From a virus, in IMG/VR virus record IMGVR_UViG_3300025133_000100, positions 1-63,061 of that record: a DNA stretch of 63,061 nt, one strand, 5' to 3'. The notes under the pieces are model-generated. The model did not search any database and was not told the origin of the DNA. It worked only from the letters and a program-made list of their open reading frames with translations. Positions 15,739-54,202 of this stretch are shown one piece after another. A program made the position numbers and the translations under genes. Position 1 is the first letter of the stretch. Each line of letters starts with the position of its first letter.

Positions 15739-17322
15739 ATGAATCTTATTGGATATGGAACTGACGCAATCAATGAGACCGTGAAATTCACGGCATACCC
15801 GCCGGACAAACCTTCCCACGAAATCTCTTTAAAGGAAAACAAGGAAGTAGAGAATGGGGGAGAGATTACAACCTGGGCTCTTCGTAGAGCTGCAGAAGGT
15901 CTCCAACTTCTACTGCGAAAACAGGACGGCTCTTTAAAGGTCGTAATGAAGCTCAATAGCCAAGGCCACTGGCGAGGTCGAGACATTGAGACAAAAGGTC
16001 TCTTCGCTATGAAGCCAGAGGGTTCTCCTAATGTTTGGCGAGATTTGGCAGACCCTGGTCGCTTTATGAAGAAGAAGCTGGATGAGCTTAGAGTAGAAGC
16101 GGCTGACCATCTTCCCGACGTAGTTTACAAAGAAGCCAATGCAGTCCCCAAGAATCTTGATTGGGAGTCGGTTGCTTACAATCTAGCGGACGACTATGAT
16201 CCCGCTATCCAATCCGACACAGCTATAGCGATCATCGCATGCGACCGGTTGAGCTACTTTAAAGAAGTCCTTGAAGGTCTCTGTAAGAACCCAGAGGTTC
16301 GAGAGAAGAAGCACCCCGTCTACATCTTTATCGACAGACCTTTAATTGGTAACACCCATGTGATGGTTGAGCATGAAGAGCTTGCCAAAAAGTTGATCCC
16401 ACATGCCCACTGTATACACAGGCCGATCAATCTTGGTTGCGGACGGAACATCATCGATGCACGTCACCAACTCCTCACCAACATGGATTATAAGTACGCT
16501 TATATCTTTGAAGACGACATGGTCCCTTCTCCCGAATACCTGACGTACTGTCGAAATCTTATGCTCTGGGGAGAGAAGAATTATGACAATGTAGGAGTAG
16601 TCCAAGGTTGGAGCAAGTGCTTGTTGGGTAGCGAGGAGAAGAAGGAGCAGCTCTCTACAGTCCACGCATCCAGGACAAATCTCTGGGGCTACTTGATCTC
16701 CCGCAAATGCTGGGAAGGTATGTCCCCGACCATACTTGAGTATCAACGTCTCTTCCTCAAGTCGTTCTACCATGACAGGCCCAACAAAACTATTCGACCT
16801 TGGTTTCGAGAGGTGTTGAAGAAGTGTGCTAAGGACTCCACTAAGCCCTTCCCTGTTAACAAGGAATACAAAGACAAGCTTGCCAAGTATTGGGACTCCC
16901 CGGCAACCGGGCAAGACGCAGCGACTTTGTGTTCAATGCAAAGAGCCGGTTTTCTACTGCTTGCCCCAAATGTAAACCGGGGGTTGTACATAGGTCGTCG
17001 AGGTATCCACCAAAGCCCTGCAATGTTTGAGCAGATGGGTTATGGTAAGATGTCTATCGAAGACAACAAGATGGATGCTCGACGTAGAAACTTCCATCCA
17101 GATGGTGAAGCTAAACCCACTAAAAAGAAACCGAAGGCTAAGAAGTCTCCGGTCAAAGGTCTCGCAGTTACGGATACAATAGACGATGGCAAAGAAGAAC
17201 CTCTTCCAAAAAACGGCAAGCCTAGCAAGCGCTCTAATAAACGGAACAACAGTAAGCAAGGAAGTGATGCTGGCAAGGCTGGAGATTTGCCGGGAGTGCC
17301 CTCTGGTACAGCCAAGGGGTGA
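15739..17322 (+). CDS. Glycosyltransferase, GT-A fold (GT2/GT13-like)
   Basis: 527 residues. Residues 1-150 form an unrecognised beta-rich N-terminal domain. The central domain starts with AIAIIACDRLSYFKEVLEGL and contains HRPINLGCGRNIIDAR and IFEDDMVPSPEYL, in which the Glu-Asp-Asp (258-260) is the metal- and nucleotide-sugar-binding DXD motif. This arrangement is closest to the GlcNAc-transferase I (GT13) and GT2 types. The last 60 residues are Lys/Pro/Ser-rich, apparently disordered, and overlap the next gene by 137 bases. Together with the two other transferases nearby it probably glycosylates virion proteins (inference). Confidence 0.72.
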   Translation: MNLIGYGTDAINETVKFTAYPPDKPSHEISLKENKEVENGGEITTWALRRAAEGLQLLLRKQDGSLKVVMKLNSQGHWRGRDIETKGLFAMKPEGSPNVWRDLADPGRFMKKKLDELRVEAADHLPDVVYKEANAVPKNLDWESVAYNLADDYDPAIQSDTAIAIIACDRLSYFKEVLEGLCKNPEVREKKHPVYIFIDRPLIGNTHVMVEHEELAKKLIPHAHCIHRPINLGCGRNIIDARHQLLTNMDYKYAYIFEDDMVPSPEYLTYCRNLMLWGEKNYDNVGVVQGWSKCLLGSEEKKEQLSTVHASRTNLWGYLISRKCWEGMSPTILEYQRLFLKSFYHDRPNKTIRPWFREVLKKCAKDSTKPFPVNKEYKDKLAKYWDSPATGQDAATLCSMQRAGFLLLAPNVNRGLYIGRRGIHQSPAMFEQMGYGKMSIEDNKMDARRRNFHPDGEAKPTKKKPKAKKSPVKGLAVTDTIDDGKEEPLPKNGKPSKRSNKRNNSKQGSDAGKAGDLPGVPSGTAKG

Positions 17323-17536
17323 GCTTATGGCATGCGGGGTTTGCGGCTGTTCCGTCGCAGACTCCGGTTTGTTTAACCTTGCACGATTCGTCGAAACTGA
17401 GAAGTACGGTTGCAAGTATGGCGAAGAGAAGCTTGGTTACCCCCAGTCCAAATGGGCGGCAGCGGGCCTAAGCGGGAACGAGGGTACAGATAGGAACCCT
17501 CCTCCCCCAAAGAAGACTTGTAAGAAATGCAAGTAG
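17186..17536 (+). CDS. Small zinc-binding protein (CxxC type), overlapping the preceding gene
   Basis: 116 residues in a different frame from the end of the glycosyltransferase. The N-terminus AKKNLFQKTASLASALING followed by RLEICRECPL, then CGVCGC and a C-terminal CKKC, gives a four- to six-cysteine zinc-binding pattern. I recall similar small proteins in phages with the same helix before RxxxCxxC, so the long start at 17186 is preferred to the ATG at 17267. Function unknown. The overlap means 137 bases encode two proteins. Confidence 0.55.
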   Translation: MAKKNLFQKTASLASALINGTTVSKEVMLARLEICRECPLVQPRGELMACGVCGCSVADSGLFNLARFVETEKYGCKYGEEKLGYPQSKWAAAGLSGNEGTDRNPPPPKKTCKKCK

Positions 17537-17574
17537 CGGCTTACTTTATTTAGAATAGATTTAGAAAGAACCCC

Positions 17575-17679
17575 ATGAAGATTGTAGTTTGCGGGGAGTC
17601 CCCCTCTTTTCCATCACTTAAAATGCTTTGGACAACAGGCTTGCAAATTGGCAAAGTCTTTGCTAAACTCCAAGCATGA
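17575..17679 (+). pseudogene. Stranded 5' end of the GT4 glycosyltransferase gene
   Basis: A 34-codon frame starting MKIVVCGESPSFPS, the same 14 residues that begin the GT4 gene downstream of the homing endonuclease at 18197, but with different third-position bases in most codons. After Ser14 the frame reads unrelated sequence and stops at a TGA that overlaps the endonuclease start (ATGA). It is the original start of the transferase gene cut off by insertion of the endonuclease, and may now serve only to deliver ribosomes to the endonuclease. Confidence 0.75.
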
Positions 17680-18200
17680 TTATTCCAATACAACTTCCAG
17701 GAATAGAACCTGGATATGGCGTAGATCCTTCTGGGGTAGTGTGGAGCTGTCTAGTCCCTAACGGGCCAGGAAAGAGAAAGGTCTCCGAGACTTGGAAACC
17801 TTTGACCCCTTTCTACAATAATAAAGGTTACCCTATGGTAACCCTCTCTAACCGCAAGAAGTACCTAGTCCACCGCTTAGTGCTCTTGGTTCTCAAAGGT
17901 CCCTGTCCCGAAGGTTGGGAATCTCGACACCTAGATGGAGATCAGGGAAACCCCAAGTTAGAAAACCTTACTTGGGGCACCCGCTCCCAGAATAACTACG
18001 AGGATAAGAAAAAGACAGGGACTTTTCTGGAGGGGAGTAAACACGGGAACTCCAAGCTTACAGAAGATCAAGTAGAGGAGATGCGAGCCTTGAAGGGTAA
18101 GGAAACCTTAGCAGTTTTATCGGAGAGGTACGGGGTAGCCCCCTCTACCATCTCCCGGATTCAGAATCTCATTAGAAGAAAAGGAGGTAGGGCATTATGA
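17676..18200 (+). CDS. HNH homing endonuclease (NUMOD4/HNH type with C-terminal DNA-binding segment)
   Basis: 174 residues. The N-terminal NUMOD4-like part has YGVDPSGVVWSC and KGYPMVTLSNRKKYLVHRLVLL. The HNH core follows with SRHLDGDQGNPKLENLTWGT, in which the His, Asn and the LxNLxWxT box are diagnostic. The C-terminal helix-turn-helix (LAVLSERYGVAPSTISRI) would bind DNA. The gene sits within the 5' end of the GT4 glycosyltransferase gene, flanked by two recoded copies of that gene's first 14 codons. Its last codons carry AAGGAGG, which serves as RBS for the restored transferase start. Confidence 0.85.
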   Translation: MIIPIQLPGIEPGYGVDPSGVVWSCLVPNGPGKRKVSETWKPLTPFYNNKGYPMVTLSNRKKYLVHRLVLLVLKGPCPEGWESRHLDGDQGNPKLENLTWGTRSQNNYEDKKKTGTFLEGSKHGNSKLTEDQVEEMRALKGKETLAVLSERYGVAPSTISRIQNLIRRKGGRAL

Positions 18201-18238
18201 AGATCGTAGTATGTGGAGAATCACCATCATTCCCTAGC
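18197..18238 (+). repeat. Recoded duplicate of the first 14 codons of the GT4 gene
   Basis: Encodes MKIVVCGESPSFPS exactly as 17575-17616 does, but eleven codons differ by synonymous changes (for example TGC/TGT, GGG/GGA, CCC/CCA, TCA/AGC). It overlaps the endonuclease stop by four bases and stands 10 bases after AAGGAGG. It looks like a start segment that came with the endonuclease and replaced the severed gene start. Confidence 0.75.
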
Positions 18239-19955
18239 GGGTTTCGGCCAACAGGTCCGACTACTCGTCCAAGGACTAGCAGAGCTTGGGCATGAAGTGA
18301 CACTTCTTTCCCAGCAGATCCCTATGCCCATCATAGAGATAGAGGGTGTAGAGGAGAGAAGAATGTCAAACGGTTTTGACATGAAAGAGCTTGACCCTGA
18401 GATCCACGACGTTGCACCGGACGCTTGTATCTTCTTCCACCATCCCGGAGGAATCCAAGGTTACCTGGGCTCAACTTCAGCCCCTGCAAACTGTCCTTGT
18501 TTCTTCTGGTTCCCCTATGAAGGCTCCACCATCAAAGACGACGCAGCCTTACACTTTACAGGAATGCCCCCGGAAGGTCTGACACACTTGACAGAGTTTG
18601 CTAGAAAGCTCTGGCAACCTGTGTTCCCTTCTTCTTTGGTGATACCCCATGGGTATGATCCTAGAGTTTGGTATCCCCTCAAGCACGATAGATCCCAGCT
18701 TAGAGAGAAGTGGGAGGACAAGCTGAACGCCCCAATGAGGGACAACACCTTCATTGTACTTAACATGGACAGAAACATTTGGCATAAGAGGTGGGATGCT
18801 ACCTTTGATTACATTCGCCAATTGAAACAGGAGATGCCTGATAGACGAATCAGACTTCTAGCCCACACTAAAATGAACCAGATCCAAGAGGGCGGGCATC
18901 CGGAAGGTTTTGATTTAAAGAAGATGGAAAGCCTTTATGGTTTACAAGACGAAGTCATCTACACAGACTTCGATTGGAACAAGGGTCTTTCCCGAGAAGA
19001 ACTTCGAGAGCTTGTCCTTCTTAGCGATCTAAGAATCACCACATCAGAGGGTGAGGGTTTTGGCATCCCTACAGTAGAGTGCGCGGCGTTGTGTCACCCG
19101 CAGATTGTTAGCAAACATACGGCACTACCTGAGCTAATAGGGGAGGACAATCCTCAGTTGGTAGAGCCTGCTCTGTGGGAACCAAAGAACGATTCCTTGT
19201 GGGCTGTTCCCGATGTAAGAGCAATGGTTGATAGAACTTTAGATTTCCTGGCAGATCCCGATATGCAAGCGGACGCTATAAGAGATGCCGCCACTTACGC
19301 CCGAAGATACGAGCAGTCCCAGGTGGCACTAGATTTTGAAGCAGTCTGTAAAGGGAGCCAGTACCTCAAGGAGACAGCCAAATATAAATACCGCTATGGG
19401 TTTACAAAGCAGGCGTTCATGCCGCAGATCTTCAAAGCTGCGGCCAAGTGTTCCCTTACGCTGGGTGACTCTGTTTTGGAGCTAGGTTCCTTTACGGGAG
19501 ACTTTTTAAGGCAGGCTCGCCGGGAGAAGGTTAACGTCACAGGATTGGAATGGGATGGGGAAGCCCTTGAGAGGTATGACTCTGCTTTGAATTCCAAGTT
19601 GAAGCACCAAGCCCTCTCCGACCCTTGGCCGGAAGCGGACGTCTTGGTCGCAACCGACCTCCATGATCGAATAGCAACCGAGAGCGGAGATAAAGAGAAC
19701 GTCACAATAGCCTTTACAAGAATCGCCCAGAACTATGATTGGGCTTTATTAAGATTCGATCCCCAATATACTTGGGGTACGCCCGTAATCCCTCCAACTA
19801 GGGCAACACAAGTGCTAGAATCGGAAGGGATGATTAGGCGTTATGATTTGGAAAGAATAGCAAAGGATAAGATCCTCCATCTGCAACATCAGATTTGGGG
19901 GAAAGAATCCAACAGCTCTGTGATTCCCGAATTCTATTTGGCTGATGACGAATGA
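18213..19955 (+). CDS. GT4 glycosyltransferase fused to a SAM methyltransferase domain
   Basis: GT-B glycosyltransferase: GFGQQVRLLVQGLAELGHEV at the N-terminus, IWHKRWDATFDYIRQL mid-protein, and the GT4 motif SEGEGFGIPTVECA (Glu281 and Glu289 form E-x7-E). Residues about 400-560 form a Rossmann methyltransferase segment with SVLELGSFTGDFL as the SAM-binding loop. The open frame starts at a GTG (18213), but the natural start is the ATG at 18197. That start is one frame off: a single extra G in the GGG at 18239-18241 separates MKIVVCGESPSFPS from GFGQQ. The gene is therefore either frameshifted, rescued by +1 slippage, or affected by a sequencing error. Probable role: sugar addition and methylation on virion components. 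Confidence 0.72.
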   Translation: MENHHHSLAGFGQQVRLLVQGLAELGHEVTLLSQQIPMPIIEIEGVEERRMSNGFDMKELDPEIHDVAPDACIFFHHPGGIQGYLGSTSAPANCPCFFWFPYEGSTIKDDAALHFTGMPPEGLTHLTEFARKLWQPVFPSSLVIPHGYDPRVWYPLKHDRSQLREKWEDKLNAPMRDNTFIVLNMDRNIWHKRWDATFDYIRQLKQEMPDRRIRLLAHTKMNQIQEGGHPEGFDLKKMESLYGLQDEVIYTDFDWNKGLSREELRELVLLSDLRITTSEGEGFGIPTVECAALCHPQIVSKHTALPELIGEDNPQLVEPALWEPKNDSLWAVPDVRAMVDRTLDFLADPDMQADAIRDAATYARRYEQSQVALDFEAVCKGSQYLKETAKYKYRYGFTKQAFMPQIFKAAAKCSLTLGDSVLELGSFTGDFLRQARREKVNVTGLEWDGEALERYDSALNSKLKHQALSDPWPEADVLVATDLHDRIATESGDKENVTIAFTRIAQNYDWALLRFDPQYTWGTPVIPPTRATQVLESEGMIRRYDLERIAKDKILHLQHQIWGKESNSSVIPEFYLADDE

Positions 19956-38099: not shown

Positions 38100-39632
38100 A
38101 TGGCGACCACTACTTACAACATCGCCCTTCAGACTGAAGCAAACAAGTTCAAGTTCTACCAAATCACTGACAACAAAGTCCGCTCGACTTCCGTTGTCGA
38201 ACGCAACGCCGATGACGGGAAGCTCTCGTGCAACTGCACCGAGTACCGTTTCGCAGACGACAGCGTCTGCCGCCACACCACCTGCATCACCGACGATGTA
38301 ACGGTCTGGGATAAAGGCTTCGAGCGTAAAGAGAAGGGCTCGCGAAGCAAGCCTGTTCCTGTCCTCTTCGACAGTGAGACCCCCATCGAGTGGACGGGGG
38401 AAGAAACACTCACCCACATTATGCTGCTAGGCAAAGGTGCGGTAGTCCACGCTGTCCACCCTGAGCTTCCCGATCTGGGAGCCTCCGCTCTGTTGGACTT
38501 CCTGACGATGGGCAACATGCCCAAGGTTAAGGTCGATCCCGACAACCCTCGGTACATCAACCCTGCTCGTATCCACGCCGAGTGTGAGAAATCAAGCGAC
38601 TCTTCAAAGTCGTTGGAGTCCACGCAGGTCAAGCAAGCCGGTAAGAAGGTTGACCCTGTGACCAAGGTCACGATAGTGGTGGAGACTGTTTCGGAAGAGG
38701 AGACTCTTGCGGTTGACTTCGCCACCTACGCCGAGACGACCGAGCAGCAAGACGAAGAGAGTTACGAGTTGGTGAAGCCAGAGGATTGGGCCTCGGTAAA
38801 ACGACCCGCCCCTTCCACCTTCTTCGTCACTCCGGAGAACTGGCTAACGGCTGTCTACTGTGCCTTGCATGGTTGTCGAGTCCTCGTGACTGGCCCTTCC
38901 GGTTGCGGTAAGTCGGAGCTTGCCTACTATGTCTCACGACTCTGTGGCATGCCCCCTCTGACTGCGGTCAACTTCGGTGCCATGCAAGATCCGCGAAGTG
39001 CGATCATCGGCAACACGACTGCCAACGTGGATGGCACGATCCATAACCTGTCTCGGTTTGCCCAAGCGATCCAGAAGCCGGGGATGATTCTCCTGGACGA
39101 GATCAGCCGCGATCAGACTGGAGCAGCCCAGAACATTCTGTTGCCTCTCCTGGACAACCAAGGCTACCTCGCCATCGACGAAGACGAGAACTGCCCTGTC
39201 ATCCACAAGCATGAGCGTACCTCGTTCTTCGCCACGGCGAACATCGGGATGGAGTACACTGGAACGGAAGCTTTGGACATTGCTCTGATCGAGCGATTCG
39301 ACTTCCACATCCACATGACTTGGGCACCAAGGGATAAGGAAAAGGACATTCTCCTGAAGAGATGCCCTGGACTGAAACCTGCATCAGCAGACCAGCTCGT
39401 AGACCTTGCTGGGGAGCAACGTAAGCTCCATGAGGAAGGCGACATGTCCAAGTCAATCTCGACTCGTATGCTTCTCGCGGCAGGCACTGCTGTCGGTCGA
39501 GGGATGCCTTACGAGATGGCTCTGTCCGGTTCCGTTATCAACAAGTTCGAGGCTGACGGGGGTGACTCCTCCGAGCAGACCCAGCTCCGACAGTTGGTGC
39601 AACGCAAAGGTGGTGCCAAGAAACGCAAGTAA
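38100..39632 (+). CDS. MoxR/CobS-type AAA+ ATPase with N-terminal SWIM finger
   Basis: 510 residues. The N-terminal SWIM finger is Cys44-x-Cys46 ... Cys57-x-His59 (SCNCTEYRFADDSVCRHT). An acidic linker (about 160-225) precedes the AAA+ core: Walker A GPSGCGKS (about 265-272), Walker B GMILLDEISRD, sensor 1 FFATANIG and the arginine-finger region ALIERFDF. This is the MoxR/CobS class, which works with VWA-domain partners as a chaperone or metal inserter. The VWA partner is two genes downstream. RBS CAGGAG; a terminator follows. Confidence 0.78.
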   Translation: MATTTYNIALQTEANKFKFYQITDNKVRSTSVVERNADDGKLSCNCTEYRFADDSVCRHTTCITDDVTVWDKGFERKEKGSRSKPVPVLFDSETPIEWTGEETLTHIMLLGKGAVVHAVHPELPDLGASALLDFLTMGNMPKVKVDPDNPRYINPARIHAECEKSSDSSKSLESTQVKQAGKKVDPVTKVTIVVETVSEEETLAVDFATYAETTEQQDEESYELVKPEDWASVKRPAPSTFFVTPENWLTAVYCALHGCRVLVTGPSGCGKSELAYYVSRLCGMPPLTAVNFGAMQDPRSAIIGNTTANVDGTIHNLSRFAQAIQKPGMILLDEISRDQTGAAQNILLPLLDNQGYLAIDEDENCPVIHKHERTSFFATANIGMEYTGTEALDIALIERFDFHIHMTWAPRDKEKDILLKRCPGLKPASADQLVDLAGEQRKLHEEGDMSKSISTRMLLAAGTAVGRGMPYEMALSGSVINKFEADGGDSSEQTQLRQLVQRKGGAKKRK

Positions 39633-39641
39633 GAATCGGTG

Positions 39642-39691
39642 GAGGGGGGATCGGTCTCGATTGGTCTCCTGCCGGTTCTCCCTCTTTATTT
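39642..39691 (+). terminator. Intrinsic terminator after the MoxR-type gene
   Basis: GAGGGGGGATCGG pairs with CCGGTTCTCCCTC, 13 consecutive pairs including G-T, around a 17-base loop, followed by TTTATTTAA. Confidence 0.65.
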
Positions 39692-39731
39692 AACACACAT
39701 CAAAACACCCCCTCGCACAAGGACGATTACC

Positions 39732-40229
39732 ATGAATCGAAAAGAATTAGTAGCTAAGTTTCCCGGCTCTCGTCTCCAAGTTACGGACGGGGCTTTTCCT
39801 GACACTACGGACTATGCCTTAGTGCTAGATCAGCCCGGATGGACGTCCGAAGTCAAAGTTACCTGCGGCAAGACGAGGGTGCAGACCCAAGAGGGTTATG
39901 AGTCCCAAGTCCTCACAGACTTAGCCGAGCGGGTAAACCATGGGCAGGGTAACCCCTTCTTCAAGGTCCCTGCCGAGGACTGCACCGTCTACCAAGTCAA
40001 GAGGACCAAAACCAAAAAGGGTGATCCCAAGACCTTTGTGATAGCCTCCAAGTGTATTGCTGGAGAGGTGAGGCTAATCCACACTTTGACACTCACCGAA
40101 GGAGGTAAGCCCACCTGCCCTTGTTTCCAGAATCGGTTCAGCGATGACAACGAATGTGAGCATACTTTAAAGGCGAAACCCCTTTTCGCCAAGGAAGATG
40201 GATTTATCACCAAGGACCCCTTGACGTAA
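39732..40229 (+). CDS. SWIM zinc-finger protein, second copy
   Basis: 165 residues from the ATG preceded by AAGGACG. The N-terminal half starts KELVAKFPGSRLQVTDGAFP; a central region has KVPAEDCTVYQVKRTKTKKG. The C-terminal SWIM finger is CPCFQNRFSDDNECEH (about 129-144), spaced like that in the ATPase. It lies between the ATPase and the VWA gene, and a promoter for the VWA gene overlaps its 3' end. Confidence 0.62.
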   Translation: MNRKELVAKFPGSRLQVTDGAFPDTTDYALVLDQPGWTSEVKVTCGKTRVQTQEGYESQVLTDLAERVNHGQGNPFFKVPAEDCTVYQVKRTKTKKGDPKTFVIASKCIAGEVRLIHTLTLTEGGKPTCPCFQNRFSDDNECEHTLKAKPLFAKEDGFITKDPLT

Positions 40230-40249
40230 TATTCCGACCCTGGTACATT
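40221..40249 (+). promoter_or_regulatory. Promoter of the VWA gene
   Basis: TTGACG, 17 bases, TACATT. The spacer matches the promoter at 38022 over TTCCGACYCTGG, beyond what a core promoter needs, suggesting a shared operator. Confidence 0.6.
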
Positions 40250-40292
40250 TTAAGAATCTGAGAAACACTCCCCAACATAAGGAACTCTGCAA

Positions 40293-42827
40293 ATGGCGAA
40301 AAAGCAGAAACGAAGCTGGTTCGATACACTCGACAAAATCAAGGATCAACGCGATGGTCGCGGCGACCTCTTCGACGAAGCTGCTGGTAACTTCTACAAC
40401 GAAGACCAAGCAACAGAGAGCAACCAGTTCTCCAGCAAGTGGTCACGCAAGCAGTACAAGCTTGACCCCAAAAACGAAAGCAAGTTGGTGATGGACCTTG
40501 CGATGATTCGCAACGCCGTCGTCAACCTTCTACGTGTTCATGGTCTCCCCAGAAACTGCCCGGTTGAATTCGCGCACCTCGGAGAGATCGGAGGGGCCGC
40601 AGCATCTTTCCGCGACATTGGAAAGTGGAAGCAGCCCTTCATCCTGATGGACCTAGTGCCGTTCGAGATTGCCTCCAGTGAGGAGGTTCTCGATCTCTAC
40701 CTTGGCCTAGGTCTCCATGAAGCAGACCACATCCGCGAGACCCGCAAGCTCTTCTTAAAGATGAAGCAGTGGGACGGCACCGAGCCGATTCTTTCGATGT
40801 TCACTGGTCTGTTTGAAGACGAGCGTATCGAAGCCGCAGGGAAGTTGCACTCCCCTGGTTTTGCTCCCTACTACCATGGGATCAAGCGGATCTTCTTCGA
40901 GAAGCGAGAGTTCGGTAGCAGCATCGCCCACTGGGGTGAGGAGCAGCCCGAGGTCAGCCGCATCAACGCTATCTTCTTTGGTTTTATCCGATGCGGATAC
41001 CTGCTAACCAAAGAGATTAAAGAGTGGAAGACTCTCACCAACCACTGCGTCTTCGACGAGCTTCGTGGCATGTTCCCGCACCTCCCTCGCACAGAGGACG
41101 AGGTGATTGAATACGGTCAGAAGATCCATGACTACTACAAGTTCCTGCTGAAGGAATACGACGATCTCCTGGACATGTCTGACGAAGACATTAAGAGCAA
41201 GGTTCAAGGCGAGCAACCAGAAGGACAACCCGAGGGGCAACCTGAAGGCGAAGCTGGCGAAGGTGAAGCCGGTGAGGGTGGTCAAGGTTCCGATGGGGAA
41301 GGTCAAGGCCAAGAGGGTCAAGGTCAAGGTGGTCAAGGTGGCGAGAGCCAGAGCGGTCAAGGTCAGAGCGGTCAAGGCCAAGCCTCCCAAGGTGATGGTC
41401 AAGCCTCCAACGACGATGGCACCGAGGCCCAAGGCCAAGACGCTGCACCTTCCCAAGGTGGAGAGCAACAGCAAGGCGGCAAGCAGAGCCAGCAGAGCCA
41501 GCAGAGCCCCCAGGAGCAAAAAGCTGGTCCTACCTCGGAAGAGATCCAGGATCGCCTAGACGCAGAGCGTAAGGCTCGCAGCAACGCCCAAGCGAAGGAA
41601 GCTACCCAGAAAAGCATCGACGATCTAGTCAAGCAGCACCAGTCTGCTTTGGAGGATTACAAAGATGCTGAGAAGTCGGGTGACTCCTCGCAGGACAGCG
41701 AGAAGAAACGAGCTATCGAAAAGTTCGAGAAGACTCAGAAGAAGCTCAACAAGAAACTCGCTGACTTGGTCGAAGCAGGAATCATGGACGGCAGCTTCAC
41801 CATGCAGGACATGATCCAGATGATGAAGAAGCTAGACGACGTTTCCTCACCGATGGACGCCAAGCAATCTGAAGAGTCGGGTAAGCAAACTGCGAACCGA
41901 GTCGAGCGAGGACCTGATTGGCAACCTGAGAAGGGCTCGTCTCCTGCCGGGACTGTGATCTCTCATCCGCAACCTACGTCTGCTTTGACAGCGAAGTACG
42001 AGAACTACCTCGCTCTGATGCAGCCGCACATCAACCGGATGAAAAAGGTTTTCTCTTACCGAACAGGTAGCCGAAACTTCAACATCACCGAGCAGCCAAA
42101 CGGGCGAATCGACCGACGTAAGCTTCACATGATCAAAGAGGCTCAACTCAAGCACAGAGCCAACCCTGGCTTGAAGAAGCGTGCCTTGCGAATATGCAAG
42201 CAGGAAGTCACAAAGTCGGCCCGAGGGCTCTCTGTGGGCATCCTGCTCGACGAGAGCGGATCTATGGGTTCGTGCTACGACAATCCTAGCATGAGCAGCA
42301 TGGGAAAGGCCGAGTACGCAATGTGCATCGGTGTCCTTCTCCACGAGTGCCTCGTTGGCTTGCCTAGCATCGAGCATGAGATCTACAGCCACACAACCGG
42401 TGGGTGGGGTCGAGGCGGCGGGGACAACGATACGATGTTTACATACCTGTACGGGAAGAACAACCCGCACAAGCATAGCATCGCAGCTTACGATCCCGGC
42501 AGCGGAAACTACGATTACGTGGCGATCAACTGTGCCCGCCATGAGATGAAGAAGTTCTGCAATCCCAAGTTCGAGAAGTTGCTGATCGTTGTCAGCGATG
42601 GTGAGCCCTGCGGCCACTTCGGTGGAATGTCGGCTACGGACGCAACCAAGTTGTCGGTTGACCAGTGCCGCAAGGACGGCTTCCACGTTTTGCAAATCGC
42701 AATCGACGGGGTTCGTAATTCCGACAAGATGTACGGCAAAGAGAACGTCGTCCACTTCGAGGACCTGCCGAACCTGATCGTTAACATGCGGAAGTTCATG
42801 GCTCGCCTGATCCGCAACATTTCGTAA
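40293..42827 (+). CDS. Metallopeptidase-like and VWA domain protein (CobT/ViaA-like partner)
   Basis: 844 residues. The N-terminal domain contains LGLHEADHIRE, an H142-E143-x-x-H146 zinc motif, with a downstream acidic helix (LFEDERIEAA), as in metallopeptidase-like domains of VWA proteins. Residues about 305-410 are a Gln/Gly/Glu-rich linker. A charged coiled coil follows to about 520. The C-terminal VWA domain has the MIDAS motif Asp653-x-Ser-x-Ser (LLDESGSMG) and LLIVVSDGEP. VWA/MoxR pairs act as metal- or protein-remodelling machines; here the set includes SWIM proteins. Substrate unknown. A strong hairpin follows the stop. Confidence 0.75.
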   Translation: MAKKQKRSWFDTLDKIKDQRDGRGDLFDEAAGNFYNEDQATESNQFSSKWSRKQYKLDPKNESKLVMDLAMIRNAVVNLLRVHGLPRNCPVEFAHLGEIGGAAASFRDIGKWKQPFILMDLVPFEIASSEEVLDLYLGLGLHEADHIRETRKLFLKMKQWDGTEPILSMFTGLFEDERIEAAGKLHSPGFAPYYHGIKRIFFEKREFGSSIAHWGEEQPEVSRINAIFFGFIRCGYLLTKEIKEWKTLTNHCVFDELRGMFPHLPRTEDEVIEYGQKIHDYYKFLLKEYDDLLDMSDEDIKSKVQGEQPEGQPEGQPEGEAGEGEAGEGGQGSDGEGQGQEGQGQGGQGGESQSGQGQSGQGQASQGDGQASNDDGTEAQGQDAAPSQGGEQQQGGKQSQQSQQSPQEQKAGPTSEEIQDRLDAERKARSNAQAKEATQKSIDDLVKQHQSALEDYKDAEKSGDSSQDSEKKRAIEKFEKTQKKLNKKLADLVEAGIMDGSFTMQDMIQMMKKLDDVSSPMDAKQSEESGKQTANRVERGPDWQPEKGSSPAGTVISHPQPTSALTAKYENYLALMQPHINRMKKVFSYRTGSRNFNITEQPNGRIDRRKLHMIKEAQLKHRANPGLKKRALRICKQEVTKSARGLSVGILLDESGSMGSCYDNPSMSSMGKAEYAMCIGVLLHECLVGLPSIEHEIYSHTTGGWGRGGGDNDTMFTYLYGKNNPHKHSIAAYDPGSGNYDYVAINCARHEMKKFCNPKFEKLLIVVSDGEPCGHFGGMSATDATKLSVDQCRKDGFHVLQIAIDGVRNSDKMYGKENVVHFEDLPNLIVNMRKFMARLIRNIS

Positions 42828-48129: not shown

Positions 48130-48149
48130 AAACTTTCTCGGAATCCCTG

Positions 48150-48178
48150 TTGACGGATGAGATCCCGGTCGATAGATT
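48150..48178 (+). promoter_or_regulatory. Early-type promoter 1
   Basis: TTGACG, 17 bases, TAGATT, then ACTTATATAAGTTAA in the initially transcribed region. Preceded by AAAACTTTCTCGGAATCCC, the conserved upstream element of the array. Drives two small genes and probably the structured RNA. Confidence 0.75.
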
Positions 48179-48222
48179 ACTTATATAAGTTAATCAACGC
48201 AACGCAAACGGGAGACACAAAC

Positions 48223-48411
48223 ATGAGACTTTCCGAAATCAACGACCGACTCGAAGCCGCAATCGTCAACGACAACAAAGCGGAAGTCGAAGCTTGCTTG
48301 GCCGAATACCGCAAGGCAACGCTCGAAATCAAGAAGGCTTACAAGACGATGTGCGACAAGCGGGTGACCCTTGTGCCCGTCACAGCAAAACCAAACGCCC
48401 GATTCAACTAA
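48223..48411 (+). CDS. Small hypothetical helical protein
   Basis: 62 residues from the ATG after ACGGGAGACACAAAC. Two helices (EINDRLEAAIVNDNKAEVEA, then KATLEIKKAYKTM) and a C-terminal TLVPVTAKPNARFN. The VTAKPNA coding segment is repeated at the start of the next gene. Function unknown. Confidence 0.55.
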   Translation: MRLSEINDRLEAAIVNDNKAEVEACLAEYRKATLEIKKAYKTMCDKRVTLVPVTAKPNARFN

Positions 48412-48422
48412 GGAAGAGACCA

Positions 48423-48608
48423 ATGATTGTTACAGCAAAACCAAATGCCTCCAAGAGGACCAAGGAGAGGCTCAAGAGATTCGAGGGGAAGTTCACCTCG
48501 GTCTCGCAGACGAGCTTCCCCACCTGCTTCCAGGGGAAACCAGCGAAGCTTTTTAGAACAGCCAATTGGATCGGGTGGCTCCCTACTGAAGAAATCACCA
48601 TCTCCTAA
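48423..48608 (+). CDS. Small basic hypothetical protein
   Basis: 61 residues: MIVTAKPNASKRTKERLKRF, then KLFRTANWIGWLPTEEITIS. An RTANWIGWLP-like stretch suggests a beta strand pair. The start shares about 20 nearly identical bases with the end of the preceding gene, and the stop is embedded in an 18-base palindrome. Confidence 0.5.
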   Translation: MIVTAKPNASKRTKERLKRFEGKFTSVSQTSFPTCFQGKPAKLFRTANWIGWLPTEEITIS

Positions 48609-48618
48609 CATTAGGAGA
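48601..48618. repeat. 18-base palindrome over a stop codon
   Basis: TCTCCTAACATTAGGAGA; the stop codon TAA is bases 6-8. Identical in sequence and reading phase to the copy at 51901. Confidence 0.65.
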
Positions 48619-49300
48619 AACCCGGCAACCACTAGCTGAATGCTGCGAGTTGTCGATCTGCGGGTTAGGCTTGTTTGACGGCGCATGGGGCAACCCCTAT
48701 TAGACGCAGGGCTGAAACCTAACACCGCAGACCCTTTAGTTTATTTTGTGAGGGTCCTTCGACTTAAAGCGAGGCGACTCACTCCGACTGACACTTGGAG
48801 CATCCTACGCCGAGAAAAGGGTTGTCAGCCTGAAGTATCGGTGGAAAACCTCCGGCGTATAAAACCGGGCAAGGCTCTGGATGGGCGAGGGACTCCCACA
48901 AACTAAACTTTCAAGATCGTCCTTGGGGACAGGGGGCTAGAAGCAATTCGAGCCCACACATCCTCGCGGAGCATTCACCCACTGTTGCAACGGTGGTTGA
49001 GTCGAGCATACGGCATGCCCTCGACTCGCTGAGTGCGGTTCGACTCCTGTTGCCACTGTGGTAGTGGTACTTTGGAAAAGGGTCCTAGAATGGCTCCCTG
49101 CTTCCAAGGACGATCTTGTTGAGACCCTGCCGGGGGTGAGCATCAATCCCGGCGCTGGCGAGTACGCAACCGTAAGCATGCAACAAGTGGGACCGCTGAC
49201 TCAAGTCCCTGCCTCGAAAAGGCCCACCATCGCGGTGCATGCAACCTGTCCAGGTCCACCACTCCAGGTGGCACCCCCCGCAGGGTCTCAAAAGTTTCTC
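48619..49300 (+). ncRNA. Large candidate structured RNA
   Basis: About 680 bases with no credible gene, between an early promoter with two small genes and the next promoter. Visible stems: CTGCGGGTTAGG (48658) with CCTAACACCGCAG (48718), 12 pairs and one bulge; GGCAAC/GTTGTC (48624/48649); GGGG-CAA-CCCC; TACGCCG (48806) with CGGCGTA (48853); CCACTGTTGCAACGGTGG (48979); GAGTCGAG (48999) with CTCGACTC (49020). Size and phage context resemble the GOLLD/ROOL class of giant phage RNAs, but identity cannot be established by eye. Confidence 0.65.
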
Positions 49301-49322
49301 GAAAGTTTTTCCAGATACCCTG

Positions 49323-49351
49323 TTGACGTGGCAGATCGTTGCCGATAGGAT
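49323..49351 (+). promoter_or_regulatory. Early-type promoter 2
   Basis: TTGACG, 17 bases, TAGGAT, then ACTTATAGAAGTTAACG. Upstream element TTTCTCGAAAGTTTTTCC. Confidence 0.75.
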
Positions 49352-49394
49352 ACTTATAGAAGTTAACGAAGCCACGCAAACGGGAGACTCAAAG

Positions 49395-49652
49395 ATGAAC
49401 CTTTCAGACCGACTCGAAAACGGAACCCAGTACCCCGCAGCCCTCGACATGGTCATCTCGGCACGAGCCATCAAGTTGGCAAACGGCTCTGAGTTCGAGG
49501 GGACAGAGCTGGAACACGCAGAGGCTGTTGGGGTTGTGTTCGTCCGAAGCAACCCACGCCAGGGCGTAGAGTTCGTCTACGTGGACGGGGCACTCGCTAC
49601 GAGCGAGGTAGTCTCGGATGCGGTTCTCAACTTCGTCTGCTCGACCTACTAA
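49395..49652 (+). CDS. Small hypothetical protein
   Basis: 85 residues, leader ending ACGGGAGACTCAAAG. Helix LEHAEAVGVV flanked by short strands (VFVRSNPRQGVEFVYVDGAL). No family recognised; single gene under its own early promoter. Confidence 0.5.
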   Translation: MNLSDRLENGTQYPAALDMVISARAIKLANGSEFEGTELEHAEAVGVVFVRSNPRQGVEFVYVDGALATSEVVSDAVLNFVCSTY

Positions 49653-49682
49653 AACTTTTCCAGAATTTCCCCGGTTCCCCTG

Positions 49683-49711
49683 TTGACGGGGAGCCATCCG
49701 GTCGATTATAA
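49683..49711 (+). promoter_or_regulatory. Early-type promoter 3
   Basis: TTGACG, 17 bases, TTATAA (differs from the usual TAGATT but spacer kept), then CTTATAGAAGCTTAACC. Confidence 0.72.
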
Positions 49712-49756
49712 CTTATAGAAGCTTAACCAACTGGACGCCAAACGGGAGACGAGACC

Positions 49757-49981
49757 ATGACCAGAGACTTCACAAAGACCTTCAGCGGAGCCTACATCAC
49801 CGAACACAAGGGTCGCTACATCCGCGTGGAAAAGACCGATGGAGGTTGGTTGGCTCAGACGGTCCTGAAAGAGGGAGTCTTCTTCGTGGACGACAGCTAC
49901 GCCTCGCGACTCCACGACATCAGCAAGACCCGCAAGGCGGCTGTCGAGGTGGTGGCGTACCTGATCGACGAAGGCTTCTAA
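49757..49981 (+). CDS. Small hypothetical protein
   Basis: 74 residues: TKTFSGAYITEHKGRYIRVE, DGGWLAQTV and a C-terminal helix (TRKAAVEVVAYLIDEGF). A compact beta-beta-beta-alpha pattern. Leader CAAACGGGAGACGAGACC. Function unknown. Confidence 0.5.
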   Translation: MTRDFTKTFSGAYITEHKGRYIRVEKTDGGWLAQTVLKEGVFFVDDSYASRLHDISKTRKAAVEVVAYLIDEGF

Positions 49982-50011
49982 AACTTTCCAAAAAGTTTTC
50001 CGGTTTCCCTG

Positions 50012-50040
50012 TTGACGGGGAACTGGACAGTCGATAGATT
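50012..50040 (+). promoter_or_regulatory. Early-type promoter 4
   Basis: TTGACG, 17 bases, TAGATT, then ACTTATAGAAGTTAACA; upstream AAAAAGTTTTCCGG. Confidence 0.75.
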
Positions 50041-50087
50041 ACTTATAGAAGTTAACACCAACCCCTCGAAACCTGGAGACCAAGACC

Positions 50088-50597
50088 ATGATGAAAGCAC
50101 ACGCAACCGTAGGAATGACCGTCACCTTTGGCCGGACTCGCGGAGAGCAGACTCTCGGCAAGATCGTCAAGATGAACCCGAAGAAGGCCAAGGTCGAGAT
50201 CTTGGAGGATCGCGGCAGCAAGTCGAAGAAGGGCGAAGTCTGGGGAGTGCCTTACTCGCTGATGACACCCCACTCGCTGGTCGCGGCGGTCAACGCCGAA
50301 AACGCTCCGGCATCGACGCCGGTCGCCAAGGTCACCGAGTTCAAGCGGGAGATCCGCTTCAACCCCTTCGACTCTGTCACGTACCACACGATGGCAGCGA
50401 TCCACGCCGTCTACGGCGAGCTGGAGCCCGAGATGCTGTCCTGCGACGGGGAAGCCTCTGCTGCCCACGTCAGGAGACGCAGGGCGAAGCTGACCAAGCA
50501 GTTGCAAGCCCTCCAGGCTGTCCTGGGCTACCCCGTGACGCAGGAGCAATGCTGGGAGTACGAGGAGAGCCGAAAAGCCTCGCGAATACCCAGCTAA
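50088..50597 (+). CDS. Hypothetical protein with KOW/SH3-like N-terminus
   Basis: 169 residues. VGMTVTFGRTRGEQTLGKIV then KMNPKKAKVEILEDRGS and a GxVWxVPYxLM segment form a small beta barrel; I recall similar sequences in phage and planctomycete hypothetical proteins. The C-terminal helix pair has VRRRRAKLTKQLQALQAVL. It could bind nucleic acid or ribosomes. Confidence 0.5.
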   Translation: MMKAHATVGMTVTFGRTRGEQTLGKIVKMNPKKAKVEILEDRGSKSKKGEVWGVPYSLMTPHSLVAAVNAENAPASTPVAKVTEFKREIRFNPFDSVTYHTMAAIHAVYGELEPEMLSCDGEASAAHVRRRRAKLTKQLQALQAVLGYPVTQEQCWEYEESRKASRIPS

Positions 50598-50627
50598 AAC
50601 TTTCTCGGAATTTTCCCGGTTCCCCTG

Positions 50628-50656
50628 TTGACGGGGACCGGGACCTCGTCTAGGAT
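50628..50656 (+). promoter_or_regulatory. Early-type promoter 5
   Basis: TTGACG, 17 bases, TAGGAT, then AGCTTATAGAAGTTAACC. Confidence 0.74.
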
Positions 50657-50701
50657 AGCTTATAGAAGTTAACCAACCCCCCTGAAACGGAGACCACAAC
50701 C

Positions 50702-51151
50702 ATGCCAACCGACGCCCCCCAAATCGATCACGCGAACTACCCCAAGTCCCTCAAGGGTCGCAGCGACGACAGCCTCCGCTTCACAATCAAGGATTGCCAA
50801 GCAGCCATGAAGGCGATGCCTGACAACCCCAAGTGCGGCTACTACGCCGACGAGATCCACTACTGCGGGATGGAGCTACATTCCCGCACCAAAGCGGCCC
50901 AGGACGCCCGCAGAGAGGCCCGCAAACCTTCTAACCTCACGAAGTACAAGCAAGCCGCCCGAGTCGCCCAGCGGTACAACCAGCCCCTCCAGTATTGCGA
51001 TCCGAAGGCTGACGCCCACGAAGAGAAGTGGAATGAGAAGATCGATAAGTGCGAAGCCATCGAGGAGCTGTTGACGGCAGCAGAGCGGAAACTCGCAATC
51101 ATCTGGCTGAGTGCCAATGAGATGTACGGCTACATGGGCGAAGTATGCTGA
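50702..51151 (+). CDS. Hypothetical helical protein
   Basis: 149 residues, helical and charged: FTIKDCQAAMKAMPDNPKCG, MELHSRTKAAQDARREARK, CEAIEELLTAAERKLAIIWL. Five cysteines without a clear metal pattern. Sole gene of its promoter unit. Confidence 0.5.
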   Translation: MPTDAPQIDHANYPKSLKGRSDDSLRFTIKDCQAAMKAMPDNPKCGYYADEIHYCGMELHSRTKAAQDARREARKPSNLTKYKQAARVAQRYNQPLQYCDPKADAHEEKWNEKIDKCEAIEELLTAAERKLAIIWLSANEMYGYMGEVC

Positions 51152-51182
51152 AAAGAATCTTGAAACTTTCCCGGTTTCCCTG

Positions 51183-51211
51183 TTGACGGGAACCGGGACA
51201 GTCGATAGATT
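51183..51211 (+). promoter_or_regulatory. Early-type promoter 6
   Basis: TTGACG, 17 bases, TAGATT, then ACTTATAGAAGCTTAAACA. The unit down to the start codon is almost identical to promoter 7. Confidence 0.75.
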
Positions 51212-51257
51212 ACTTATAGAAGCTTAAACAACACAACTCGAACGGGAGACCAAGACG

Positions 51258-51464
51258 ATGCCAGCCACCAAAAACGAGATCAGCCTGAACACTCTGAACA
51301 TGCTCGCAGAGAACGCCATGAGCCAAGCCAAGCAGCGAGGCCCCGACAGCCAGTGGGGGGCAGCCTGGGCCTACCAGGACGTAGTCTCCCGAATGTTCGG
51401 GCACGAAGAGGGCTCGAAGACAGGCGGCAACCTGCTGCGACAAGCCGACGAAATGGGGATCTAA
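51258..51464 (+). CDS. Small hypothetical helical protein
   Basis: 68 residues: LNTLNMLAENAMSQAKQRGP, WGAAWAYQDVVSRMFG, NLLRQADEMGI. All-helical; no family recognised. Leader CGAACGGGAGACCAAGACG. Confidence 0.5.
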   Translation: MPATKNEISLNTLNMLAENAMSQAKQRGPDSQWGAAWAYQDVVSRMFGHEEGSKTGGNLLRQADEMGI

Positions 51465-51494
51465 AAGATTCTCGAAAGTTTTCCAGTTTCCCTG

Positions 51495-51523
51495 TTGACG
51501 GGGGGCTGGACAGTCGATAGATT
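51495..51523 (+). promoter_or_regulatory. Early-type promoter 7
   Basis: TTGACG, 17 bases, TAGATT; recent duplicate of promoter 6, identical over almost the whole stretch from the -35 to the ATG. Confidence 0.75.
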
Positions 51524-51569
51524 ACTTATAGAAGCTTAAACAACACAACTCGAACGGGAGACCAAGACG

Positions 51570-51908
51570 ATGACCAAAAGCACCAGCAGCCAAGCCACCG
51601 CGATCCAGACCACCTGCTACAAGGGCTCTGATCGCAACGCGATCATCCGCGAGCATAGCCGCATCGTTCGGGGCTACGGGGTCGAGATCGAGGGGGTGAC
51701 ATACGGGAGGGACTACTTCCTGACCAAGAGGGGAGCCACCCTCGCGGCGGCTCTGATCAACGACGGGATGCCCGTCGAGCAGGCTGTCAGCCTCAACTGC
51801 GACGACATCGCAGGGGACGCATTCCGAGCCCGGAATCGCTACGTGGACGGCGTCAAGCCCACAGAGCATTGGCTGGAGACAGCCAGGAAGGCCAACCGAG
51901 TCTCCTAA
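51570..51908 (+). CDS. Small hypothetical protein
   Basis: 112 residues. REHSRIVRGYGVEIEGVTYG then TKRGATLAAALINDGMPVEQ, basic and helical at the C-terminus. Ends in Val-Ser-stop inside an 18-base palindrome, exactly as the gene at 48423 ends in Ile-Ser-stop. Confidence 0.5.
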   Translation: MTKSTSSQATAIQTTCYKGSDRNAIIREHSRIVRGYGVEIEGVTYGRDYFLTKRGATLAAALINDGMPVEQAVSLNCDDIAGDAFRARNRYVDGVKPTEHWLETARKANRVS

Positions 51909-51918
51909 CATTAGGAGA
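51901..51918. repeat. 18-base palindrome over a stop codon
   Basis: TCTCCTAACATTAGGAGA, identical to the copy at 48601 and in the same phase relative to the stop codon. Confidence 0.65.
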
Positions 51919-51934
51919 GGGCGACACCTGCCAA

Positions 51935-51984
51935 GCTGGCTGCAGCCAGCAAGTGGTGCGACTTCCGCAGGAGAGACTGCGGGT
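51935..51984 (+). other. Two tandem hairpins in a leader
   Basis: GCTGGCTGCAGCCAGC is a perfect 16-base palindrome; 15 bases later CCGCAG and CTGCGG form a second stem around GAGAGA, followed by GTAATTTT. No promoter of the early type is present here, so this leader separates two genes of one transcript and may attenuate it. Confidence 0.5.
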
Positions 51985-52016
51985 AATTTTCAACCACCAA
52001 ACGGGAGACCAAGACA

Positions 52017-52295
52017 ATGGCAGACAAAAAGCAGACCCTCGTATCCGCTACGATCTTCTGGGACAACGGCTCGCATGACCAAGCCTGGGCCTACCGCACC
52101 AAGTTCGCTGTAGACGGCGAGATCGTCCACGAGGAGTCTGGCGAGTGGTACGCCGACTTCGGAGCCCGGACCAGCAAGAGCGACCTGCAGGAGGCTCTGA
52201 GGGACCTCCTGTTCGAGGAGGGAGTGGAGGTGGACGTGGACTCGCTCTACGCTGACCCAACCCTAGACGGTGGCTACGCCTGCTGGAGCCGCTGA
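52017..52295 (+). CDS. Small acidic hypothetical protein
   Basis: 92 residues: VSATIFWDNGSHDQAWAYRT, VDGEIVHEESGEWYADFGA, DLQEALRDLLFEEGVEVDVD. Beta strands then a helix, strongly acidic, as in some nucleic-acid-mimic inhibitors, but no family is recognised. Confidence 0.5.
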   Translation: MADKKQTLVSATIFWDNGSHDQAWAYRTKFAVDGEIVHEESGEWYADFGARTSKSDLQEALRDLLFEEGVEVDVDSLYADPTLDGGYACWSR

Positions 52296-52327
52296 GAAAC
52301 TTTCTCGAAACTTTTCCGGAATCCCTG

Positions 52328-52356
52328 TTGACGTGGAAGATCGTTGCCGATAGATT
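52328..52356 (+). promoter_or_regulatory. Early-type promoter 8
   Basis: TTGACG, 17 bases, TAGATT; spacer identical to promoter 9 and close to promoter 2. Confidence 0.75.
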
Positions 52357-52396
52357 ACTTATAGAAGTTAACGAAACGCCAAACGGAGCCAAGACC

Positions 52397-52684
52397 ATGA
52401 CCACCTTCAAGAAAACCCAAAAGGCCCAAAGCTACCAGTGGAGAAGCGTTGGAGAAGGTTCAAGCCAAGCAGCAAAGTGGGAAGTGGTCGTTAATGGTGA
52501 GACCGTTGGCACCATAAGCCGAGAGCAGGGTGGCGGGTACATGGAGAAGTCCTGCTGGGTACTGCGAAGCATGGCACAACCCAGCTTCGTCCTAGCCAGT
52601 GGCACCTGTGCCAACTGCAAAGCCAAAGCCAAAACCCATAACTGGAACGAAGTTCTGGTTGCATACGTTCCCCGAAAAAAGTAA
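52397..52684 (+). CDS. Small hypothetical protein
   Basis: 95 residues from the ATG after CGGAGCCAAGACC; the in-frame sequence upstream is promoter DNA. QWRSVGEGSSQAAKWEVVVN and SCWVLRSMAQPSFVLASG suggest paired strands; CANCKAKAKTH may bind metal. Confidence 0.5.
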   Translation: MTTFKKTQKAQSYQWRSVGEGSSQAAKWEVVVNGETVGTISREQGGGYMEKSCWVLRSMAQPSFVLASGTCANCKAKAKTHNWNEVLVAYVPRKK

Positions 52685-52709
52685 ACCTTCCACCAAGGAA
52701 ACCGAGACC

Positions 52710-52859
52710 ATGAAAAAGATCACCATCACCATCAAGGACCGTCCCCTCCGCAAGGGGCACCAGGAGAGAAACTCCAGCGCCGGTGCCATGGGGGACCGTC
52801 GTACCAAACGCAACCGCACCCGAGGTGCCAAGAGCCGCAAGGCAATCCAGGAGGGCTAA
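52710..52859 (+). CDS. Small basic protein
   Basis: 49 residues, 16 Lys/Arg: MKKITITIKDRPLRKGHQER, then GDRRTKRNRTRGAKSRKAIQ. It has a ribosomal-protein-like charge and probably binds RNA or DNA. Leader AAGGAAACCGAGACC. Confidence 0.5.
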   Translation: MKKITITIKDRPLRKGHQERNSSAGAMGDRRTKRNRTRGAKSRKAIQEG

Positions 52860-52861
52860 CA

Positions 52862-53002
52862 GTGAGCCTCAAGATCAAACGAGGGATGGCAGGCTCCAAC
52901 GGTGGGAAGTCCCGCTGGGAGCGAACCGAGACCCTCAAAACACTCAGCAAGAAACTCCGACGAACCCAAGCCAAAAAGGAAATCAAGAATGCCACGAGAT
53001 AA
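52862..53002 (+). CDS. Tiny basic protein
   Basis: 46 residues from GTG after GGAGGGCTAACA: MSLKIKRGMAGSNGGKSRWE, then a Lys/Arg-rich helix (LKTLSKKLRRTQAKKEIKN). Overlaps the next gene by 14 bases. Like its neighbour it is likely nucleic-acid-binding. Confidence 0.45.
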   Translation: MSLKIKRGMAGSNGGKSRWERTETLKTLSKKLRRTQAKKEIKNATR

Positions 53003-53246
53003 CTCAACCAAGATCGTCGTCTGCCCCGAGACCGGGGACCGTCTCTGCTACGACAACAAGTGGAGAAGCTTCGCGATGTTCGGCTCCTCACCGTCCTGCG
53101 TGAAGGAATACAAGTACCTTGGGCCTGCGTTGAAGGCAGGAGCCCGCTACCGGCACCCGCTGAACAAGGGACCCTTCGAGGCTCACGTTGTCCACATCAA
53201 CGAGGGAGATTCGATGGACGCCGCAGGCAACGTCCTGCGGTCCTAA
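52989..53246 (+). CDS. Small hypothetical protein
   Basis: 85 residues after AAGGAAATCAAG. KIVVCPETGDRLCYDNKW, MFGSSPSCVKEYKYLG, then AHVVHINEGDSMDAAGNVL. Small beta-rich protein; cysteines at two positions. No family recognised. Confidence 0.5.
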   Translation: MPRDNSTKIVVCPETGDRLCYDNKWRSFAMFGSSPSCVKEYKYLGPALKAGARYRHPLNKGPFEAHVVHINEGDSMDAAGNVLRS

Positions 53247-53277
53247 AAACTTTCTCGAAACTTTTCCGGAATCCCTG

Positions 53278-53306
53278 TTGACGTGGAAGATCGTTGCCGA
53301 TAGATT
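53278..53306 (+). promoter_or_regulatory. Early-type promoter 9
   Basis: TTGACG, 17 bases, TAGATT; duplicate of promoter 8 including the upstream element GAAACTTTTCCGGAATCCC. Confidence 0.75.
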
Positions 53307-53352
53307 ACTTATAGAAGTTAACCAAGTCGCAACGCAAACCGGAGACCAAGCC

Positions 53353-53661
53353 ATGAGAAACCTTTCAGCCACCGTCAACGAAGTCACCCGCTTCTTCGAG
53401 CCCACCAGCCGCGATTGCTTCGTTGGTAACCAATGCTCCTTCGGAGTCGCCCAAGCATTTTACTTCGAGGCCACAACGCTGGGCGATTGGCGTTACGGAG
53501 TTCGCCTGTTCAACGACGGCAGCGTCACGGTTGACGCCTCCCACCCCGAGTTCGGTCGCAACACTGTTGTCGCCCTCAAGGACGACTGGGGAGTCGGAGA
53601 CGTTGTCAAGGCAGTCTGCGACCACAACCGAATGTCGCCCGACAACGTGACCGTTTCTTAG
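53353..53661 (+). CDS. Small hypothetical protein
   Basis: 102 residues: SATVNEVTRFFEPTSRDCF, CSFGVAQAFYFEATTLGDWR, NDGSVTVDASHPEFGRNTVV. Mixed alpha/beta; a Cys and a His are separated as in cysteine hydrolases, but no motif is clear. Confidence 0.5.
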   Translation: MRNLSATVNEVTRFFEPTSRDCFVGNQCSFGVAQAFYFEATTLGDWRYGVRLFNDGSVTVDASHPEFGRNTVVALKDDWGVGDVVKAVCDHNRMSPDNVTVS

Positions 53662-53688
53662 AATCTCGAAAAGTTTCCGGTTTCCCTG

Positions 53689-53717
53689 TTGACGGGGGAC
53701 CGGACAGCCGATAGATT
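53689..53717 (+). promoter_or_regulatory. Early-type promoter 10
   Basis: TTGACG, 17 bases, TAGATT, then ACTTATAGAAGTTAACC. Confidence 0.75.
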
Positions 53718-53761
53718 ACTTATAGAAGTTAACCAAGCAACGCAAACGGGAGACCAAGACG

Positions 53762-54195: not shown

Positions 54196-54202
54196 CAGAT
54201 CG

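Follow-up and report, generated by a model that had tools for sequence, protein, structure and literature searches.

Two diverged copies of a glycosyltransferase gene start on either side of an HNH homing-type endonuclease gene in an uncultured phage

Introduction

Why should the beginning of one phage gene be encoded twice, with an endonuclease gene between the two occurrences? The question is raised by the window analysed here, which is the whole of the virus record IMGVR_UViG_3300025133_000100, 63,061 bases from an uncultured phage. A sequence-only reading had noticed the repeated start of a glycosyltransferase gene and had taken it for the footprint of a homing gene that invades coding DNA and supplies a substitute exon. 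Two things argue about the origin of such a locus, namely what relatives lacking the nuclease gene look like and how each copy is joined to the rest of the transferase, and both were followed up.

Results and Discussion

The repeated transferase start

The 14-residue start MKIVVCGESPSFPS is encoded from ATG 17575 (copy 1, 17575..17616; all features described are on the + strand) and again from ATG 18197 (copy 2, 18197..18238). Direct reading agrees with the earlier observation that 11 of the 14 codons differ, all synonymously, and that an HNH gene lies between the copies. Third positions hold all ten of the ten single-base differences (about 1.7e-5 if these were random by position), and the repeat is real, far beyond chance. 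Copy 1 is preceded by its own leader (leader A, 17537..17574), which is homologous to the transferase leader (GGCT.AC..TATTTAGAAT..ATTTAGAAA) of a near relative without the HNH gene, IMGVR_UViG_3300025112_000010, referred to here as L002; the local alignment score is 19, and none of 2000 shuffles scored above 14. Copy 1 had been called a dead end. It is indeed cut off from the transferase body, but it opens an ORF of 34 codons (17575..17679, by direct reading), the TGA of which overlaps the ATG of the HNH gene (ATGA, 17676-17679).

The body of the GT4 glycosyltransferase occupies 18240..19955 (Pfam Glycos_transf_1, 1.6e-9; phrog_2170). A search of cellular genomes with the transferase gave no match, nor did a search of annotated phages by DNA, and by protein the annotated phages yielded distant GT4 relatives only, at 23-26% identity. 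The C-terminal part (19400-19955; LELGSFTGDFL...VTGLEWD) resembles a methyltransferase fused to GT4 and has no Pfam match.

Relatives without the HNH gene

A degenerate DNA search, followed by a search with alignment, gave eleven further contigs (nine distinct sequences), all without the HNH gene, with transferases 33-41% identical to that of the window. Each has a single continuous in-frame start ending PSGFGQQ or PSGFGMQ (PSGFG[QM]Q), and in the known structure 3oy2 MKLIIVGAHSSVPSGYGRV stands at the position of the PSGFG motif. The ancestral state was therefore one start, with the interruption falling between PS and GFG; the doubled start is a derived condition linked to the HNH gene. Going by this comparison, the HNH insertion is after codon 14, within a near-invariant motif, and copy 1 is at the ancestral position, matching the site of the single start in the relatives. 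That the HNH gene split the transferase gene, as had been proposed, is supported by the comparison with uninvaded relatives that had been suggested as a check; L002, the other relative compared, has copy 2 only.

The gene order in the HNH-free contigs is a 527-aa gene, a 116-aa gene, the GT4 gene and, where the contig reaches, a 649-aa gene. In the window the 116-aa gene (phrog_13558, 17186..17536), which is ancestrally upstream of the transferase and has homologues in the same place in all eleven contigs, has its last ~140 nt in a flank that is diverged from L002. The same gene and the end of the 527-aa gene share 137 nt (17186-17322) in different frames, so that some 45 codons do double duty; the distant contigs have homologues of each.

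The HNH gene and its junctions

The gene between the copies (17676..18200, 174 aa) encodes an HNH_3 homing-type endonuclease, with an HNH domain at residues 63-107 (Pfam HNH_3, E 5e-10, above the cutoff; phrog_59, 3e-27). In an alignment with phage HNH proteins it keeps VHRLV, RHLDGD and LENL, the conserved residues of a predicted HNH catalytic domain. The gene is present or absent at one and the same site, being absent from L002 and from the eleven more distant contigs.

Directly 5' of the HNH start codon lies a hairpin, GCUUG..UUGGCAAAGUCUUUGCUAA..CAAGC (17639..17675; fold -17.9 kcal/mol, z -1.65), and the region before the start holds this hairpin and no Shine-Dalgarno sequence. A search for a dedicated promoter gave only weak consensus matches, no commoner than in shuffles. 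Elsewhere in the window, at 48131-62493, at least 13 copies of an element of ~62 nt (CCCTGTTGACG...GATAGATTACTTATAGAAGTTA) stand before small genes and look like an early promoter family. At its other end the HNH ORF overlaps the start of copy 2, its stop TGA sharing ATGA with the copy 2 ATG. Coupled translation, from the copy 1 ORF to the HNH gene and on to copy 2 through the two ATGA overlaps, is plausible by likeness to the free-standing nucleases of T4 that overlap upstream ORFs (PMC2988022).

Alignment to the L002 leader places the 3' junction at 18159..18196, where the HNH reading frame passes from its IQN codons (ATTCAGAAT) into leader sequence of the transferase (ATTTAGAAT in L002). 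The two meet at ATTYAGAAT, and the last ten residues, LIRRKGGRAL, are therefore encoded by leader sequence. Homologous HNH proteins have different C-termini, a typical relative ending ISRIKNRQTWKHL. This junction looks like illegitimate recombination in which the HNH C-terminus was replaced by leader-encoded residues, unlike precise homing. A search for other insertions by the exact element upstream of the HNH gene found the same locus only.

The L002 allele and the island of divergence

The transferase of L002 is 98% identical in protein to that of the window, and its leader, ribosome site, start and one-base frame offset (discussed below) are identical to those of copy 2. L002 has this out-of-phase start but lacks the HNH gene as well as copy 1. 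The AAGGAGG at 18181-18187 had been assigned to the endonuclease as its own, but it is the ribosome site of the transferase, which has an identical leader and ribosome site before it in L002. The L002 transferase is itself preceded by a sulfotransferase-like ORF (named by eye, with no PHROGs match). Between the 116-aa gene and the transferase lies a hypervariable spot, with a sulfotransferase-like gene in L002 (5332-5928) and in contig L079 (1708-2343) and other sequence in L080, L086 and L089.

The window and L002 are near-identical at 15.2-17.39 kb and at 19.25-20.5 kb, and between these stretches lies an island of divergence (~17394-19250) which holds the HNH gene. Within the island the divergence is ~20% on the left side and 31% between copy 1 and copy 2, falls to 0 over the 86 nt of 18177..18262, which are identical to L002 between diverged flanks, and is then ~10%. 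Such an island would be expected of a co-converted tract surrounding a homing gene, but it need not stem from homing, because the genomes are mosaic in many other places as well. In the early region, the stretches 48251-49638, 51600-52000 and 61934-62909 of the window are absent from an otherwise collinear contig, G001. At 38100-42827 there is, on inspection by eye alone, a MoxR-like ATPase gene with a gene nearby whose end is VWA-like.

The earlier reading had seen in the changed codons of copy 2 a recoding that would keep the two copies from recombining and the enzyme from cutting again. The left flank has 25 differences from L002 in 143 nt, 21 of them at third positions. Third-position divergence is 10/13 between the copies and 21/47 in this adjoining flank (Fisher p = 0.06), and the divergence of the copies is compatible with that of the left flank of the same exchanged tract, not clearly above it; it is above that of the transferase body. 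With a left flank that is similarly diverged, a purposeful recoding of copy 2 is unneeded, and the synonymous spelling is best read as ordinary divergence between two alleles. A source of copy 1 was not found by a degenerate DNA search of viral contigs for the start MKIVVCGESPS, because the only matches were the contig of L002 and a contig near-identical to the window. Distant relatives aside, only two sequence types of the locus are known.

These same figures bear on a rival account that makes copy 2 the resident start and treats copy 1 as the passenger: a more diverged phage would have contributed the HNH gene along with the flank to its left (the end of the 116-aa gene, the leader and the first 14 codons of that phage's transferase), and microhomology would have joined it to the resident leader. 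The third positions that differ from L002 in the left flank (21/47) and in copy 1 (10/13), against ~25% in the body (p = 0.008 and 0.0002), point in this direction, as do the position of copy 2 within its native leader in L002 and the fusion of the HNH C-terminus to leader sequence. Yet beyond 18239 the body shares its phase with copy 1, not copy 2, and copy 2 with its surroundings forms an 86-nt patch of identity amid divergence, as though an L002-like phage had supplied it. We consider this account possible but rather doubtful. It is also conceivable that the HNH gene is a bystander and that the start was duplicated by ordinary mosaic recombination at a hypervariable spot, without homing. 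The different genes that relatives carry between the 116-aa gene and the transferase, and the genome-wide mosaicism, would suit such an origin, but the break lies in the near-invariant PSGFGQQ codons and not in a spacer, and it is a nuclease gene that fills it; this we hold to be improbable.

The frame offset and the expression of the transferase

Copy 2 had been said to restore the start of the transferase, and this proves wrong by one base, since the body is offset by +1 from copy 2 and in phase with copy 1. The frame from 18197 reads MKIVVCGESPSFPSGFRPTG... and then stops, and the body (GFGQQV...) is in the +1 frame. The transferase ORF 18213-19955, with a GTG start at 18213, reads GFGQQVRLLVQGLAELG..., whereas copy 1 cut after CCATC and joined to 18239 gives uninterrupted in-frame MKIVVCGESPSFPSGFGQQV. 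A search with the joined protein matched two separate frames in the window and in both related contigs. Against phrog_2170, the joined protein aligns from profile position 3 with 98.4 bits, and the protein from the GTG start scores 92.9 bits.

That copy 1 and the body can be joined in frame might suggest an intron, or some other element removed at the RNA level, and indeed joining copy 1 ...CCAT(C) to (C)GGGTTTC keeps the frame, with ends that obey the U...G rule for group I introns. However, there is no Rfam group I or II match at the gathering threshold or even at E 5, only ~100 nt lie outside the HNH ORF, leaving no room for a core, and L002 has the out-of-phase start with neither HNH gene nor copy 1. 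A group I or II intron was rejected for want of a conserved core, and splicing of copy 1 to the body is extremely improbable. As the data are metagenome contigs throughout, an artefact of assembly or sequencing (a chimera, or a single-base error in copy 2) has also to be weighed; it has a negligible likelihood, the locus with its offset being found also in contig G002 (99.9% identical to the window, 21 mismatches in 31 kb) and the offset also in the diverged L002.

The offset site, CCT AGC GGG TTT CGG (18233..18247), is where a slip from TTT to TTC would restore PSGFGQQ, which is in frame in all nine of the nine distinct HNH-free homologues. The +1 offset sits at the interruption point and is common to the window and L002. 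CGG is the least used arginine codon, and two other genes read TTT CGG in frame 0; a stimulatory RNA fold downstream of the offset was not significant (z -0.38). The body, compared with that of L002 over its first 330 codons (NG86), has dN 0.018, dS 0.55 and dN/dS ~0.03, and it is under strong purifying selection. Coding selection is thus seen in both frames across the offset site, in frame 0 from the synonymous-only divergence of the copies and in the body frame from dN/dS. From this selection on the body and the synonymous-only change of the start, it follows that start and body were parts of a single protein over most of their past. The offset in the window and L002 falls in the 86-nt patch of identity, which was perhaps recently exchanged and allows a recent spread of the offset; it is absent from the distant homologues.

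A full-length transferase would need a +1 slip restoring PSGFGQQ, for which UUU_CGG is the best candidate site, and on copy 2 such a slip would yield the N-terminal MKIVVCGESPSFPSGFGQQ. Alternatively, the transferase may be made from GTG 18213, without the first beta strand that is common to all homologues. The offset could mark a site of translational recoding, like the one next to the mobA insertion in gene 60 of T4, or it could just be damage. A more specific proposal, which we put forward tentatively and think unlikely, is that the homing site bears a scar of nuclease resistance, the extra base at codons 15-16 in copy 2, which is tolerated by +1 frameshifting on UUU_CGG; a homing nuclease and a recoding site would then have come together once more, independently of T4 gene 60, and the recoding allele would persist in the nuclease-free L002.

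A proposed course of events

We favour, as on balance probable, an exchange between phages of a tract that contained a free-standing homing gene, by which copy 1 was displaced and another allele contributed copy 2. An HNH homing-type gene would have entered the start of the GT4 gene between codons 14 and 15 (PS | GFGQQ) through recombination between phages, presumably with cutting by the HNH enzyme at a putative cut site, and the events would have run in this presumed order. The original start, copy 1 with its own leader, would have kept the ancestral place but been cut off, leading just into the 34-codon ORF that ends on the HNH start codon. Copy 2, with leader and ribosome site from an L002-type allele, would then re-start the transferase, and the differing spelling of the copies would also make it harder for them to recombine and perhaps for the enzyme to cut again. 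The repair would have been imperfect, joining copy 2 to the body one base off, such that the full-length enzyme would need the +1 slip, or translation would start at GTG 18213. Of the earlier idea of a homing gene with a substitute exon, the two diverged copies flanking the HNH gene stand; an in-frame fusion of the substitute to the body is not what the window has, and copy 2, occurring in L002, is not exclusive to the nuclease.

Comparison with known systems

No report of the same arrangement in phages was found in the literature searched. The closest precedent is the mobile ORFs (mORFs) of fungal mitochondria, in atp6, atp9, cox2 and nad3 of Glomus sp. and atp6 of Allomyces (PMC3630166), of which the phage locus would be a mirror image. 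An mORF brings in a C-terminus of foreign origin and leaves the native one stranded, and the imported copy and the host gene are expressed as a hybrid; the atp6 copies are 63.5% identical in DNA and 91% in protein (PMC3630166). In both cases one end of a host gene exists in two diverged versions, one of them stranded, with a free-standing homing endonuclease ORF between them. However, theirs is the C-terminus and the nuclease is LAGLIDADG or GIY-YIG (PMC3630166), whereas here it is the N-terminus of a phage gene and an HNH nuclease, and copy 2 has a one-base frame offset and occurs without the nuclease in L002.

The other comparisons are with phages. In T4, the mobA HNH homing gene splits a phage gene, and the translational bypass of 50 nt in gene 60 is established (PMC5009743, PMC2988022). 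Alike are an HNH insertion and a nearby frame-disrupting site, maybe protective against the nuclease; the bypass there spans 50 nt (PMC5009743, PMC2988022), whereas the offset here is of one base and recoding is a hypothesis only. The intronless homing of the T4 seg and mob genes also has a free-standing nuclease beside its presumed target and a start overlapping the upstream ORF, and its co-converted flanks would have a counterpart in the putative exchanged tract of the window, but a duplicated gene start is not described for them in the excerpt of PMC2988022. The mobE gene in nrdA of phage Aeh1 is likewise an HNH nuclease within a phage coding sequence, but there both halves are made and assemble (PMC2988022), whereas here the 14-codon front occurs twice and its stranded copy lacks the length to complement.

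Displacement of the end of a host gene with supply of a substitute is known from fungal mitochondria, and in the present locus it would concern the N-terminus of a phage gene, with nuclease-free relatives at hand. The idea that homing nucleases create recoding sites has so far been based on T4 gene 60, and the one-base offset at the interruption codon, common to the window and its relative, gives that idea a testable case.
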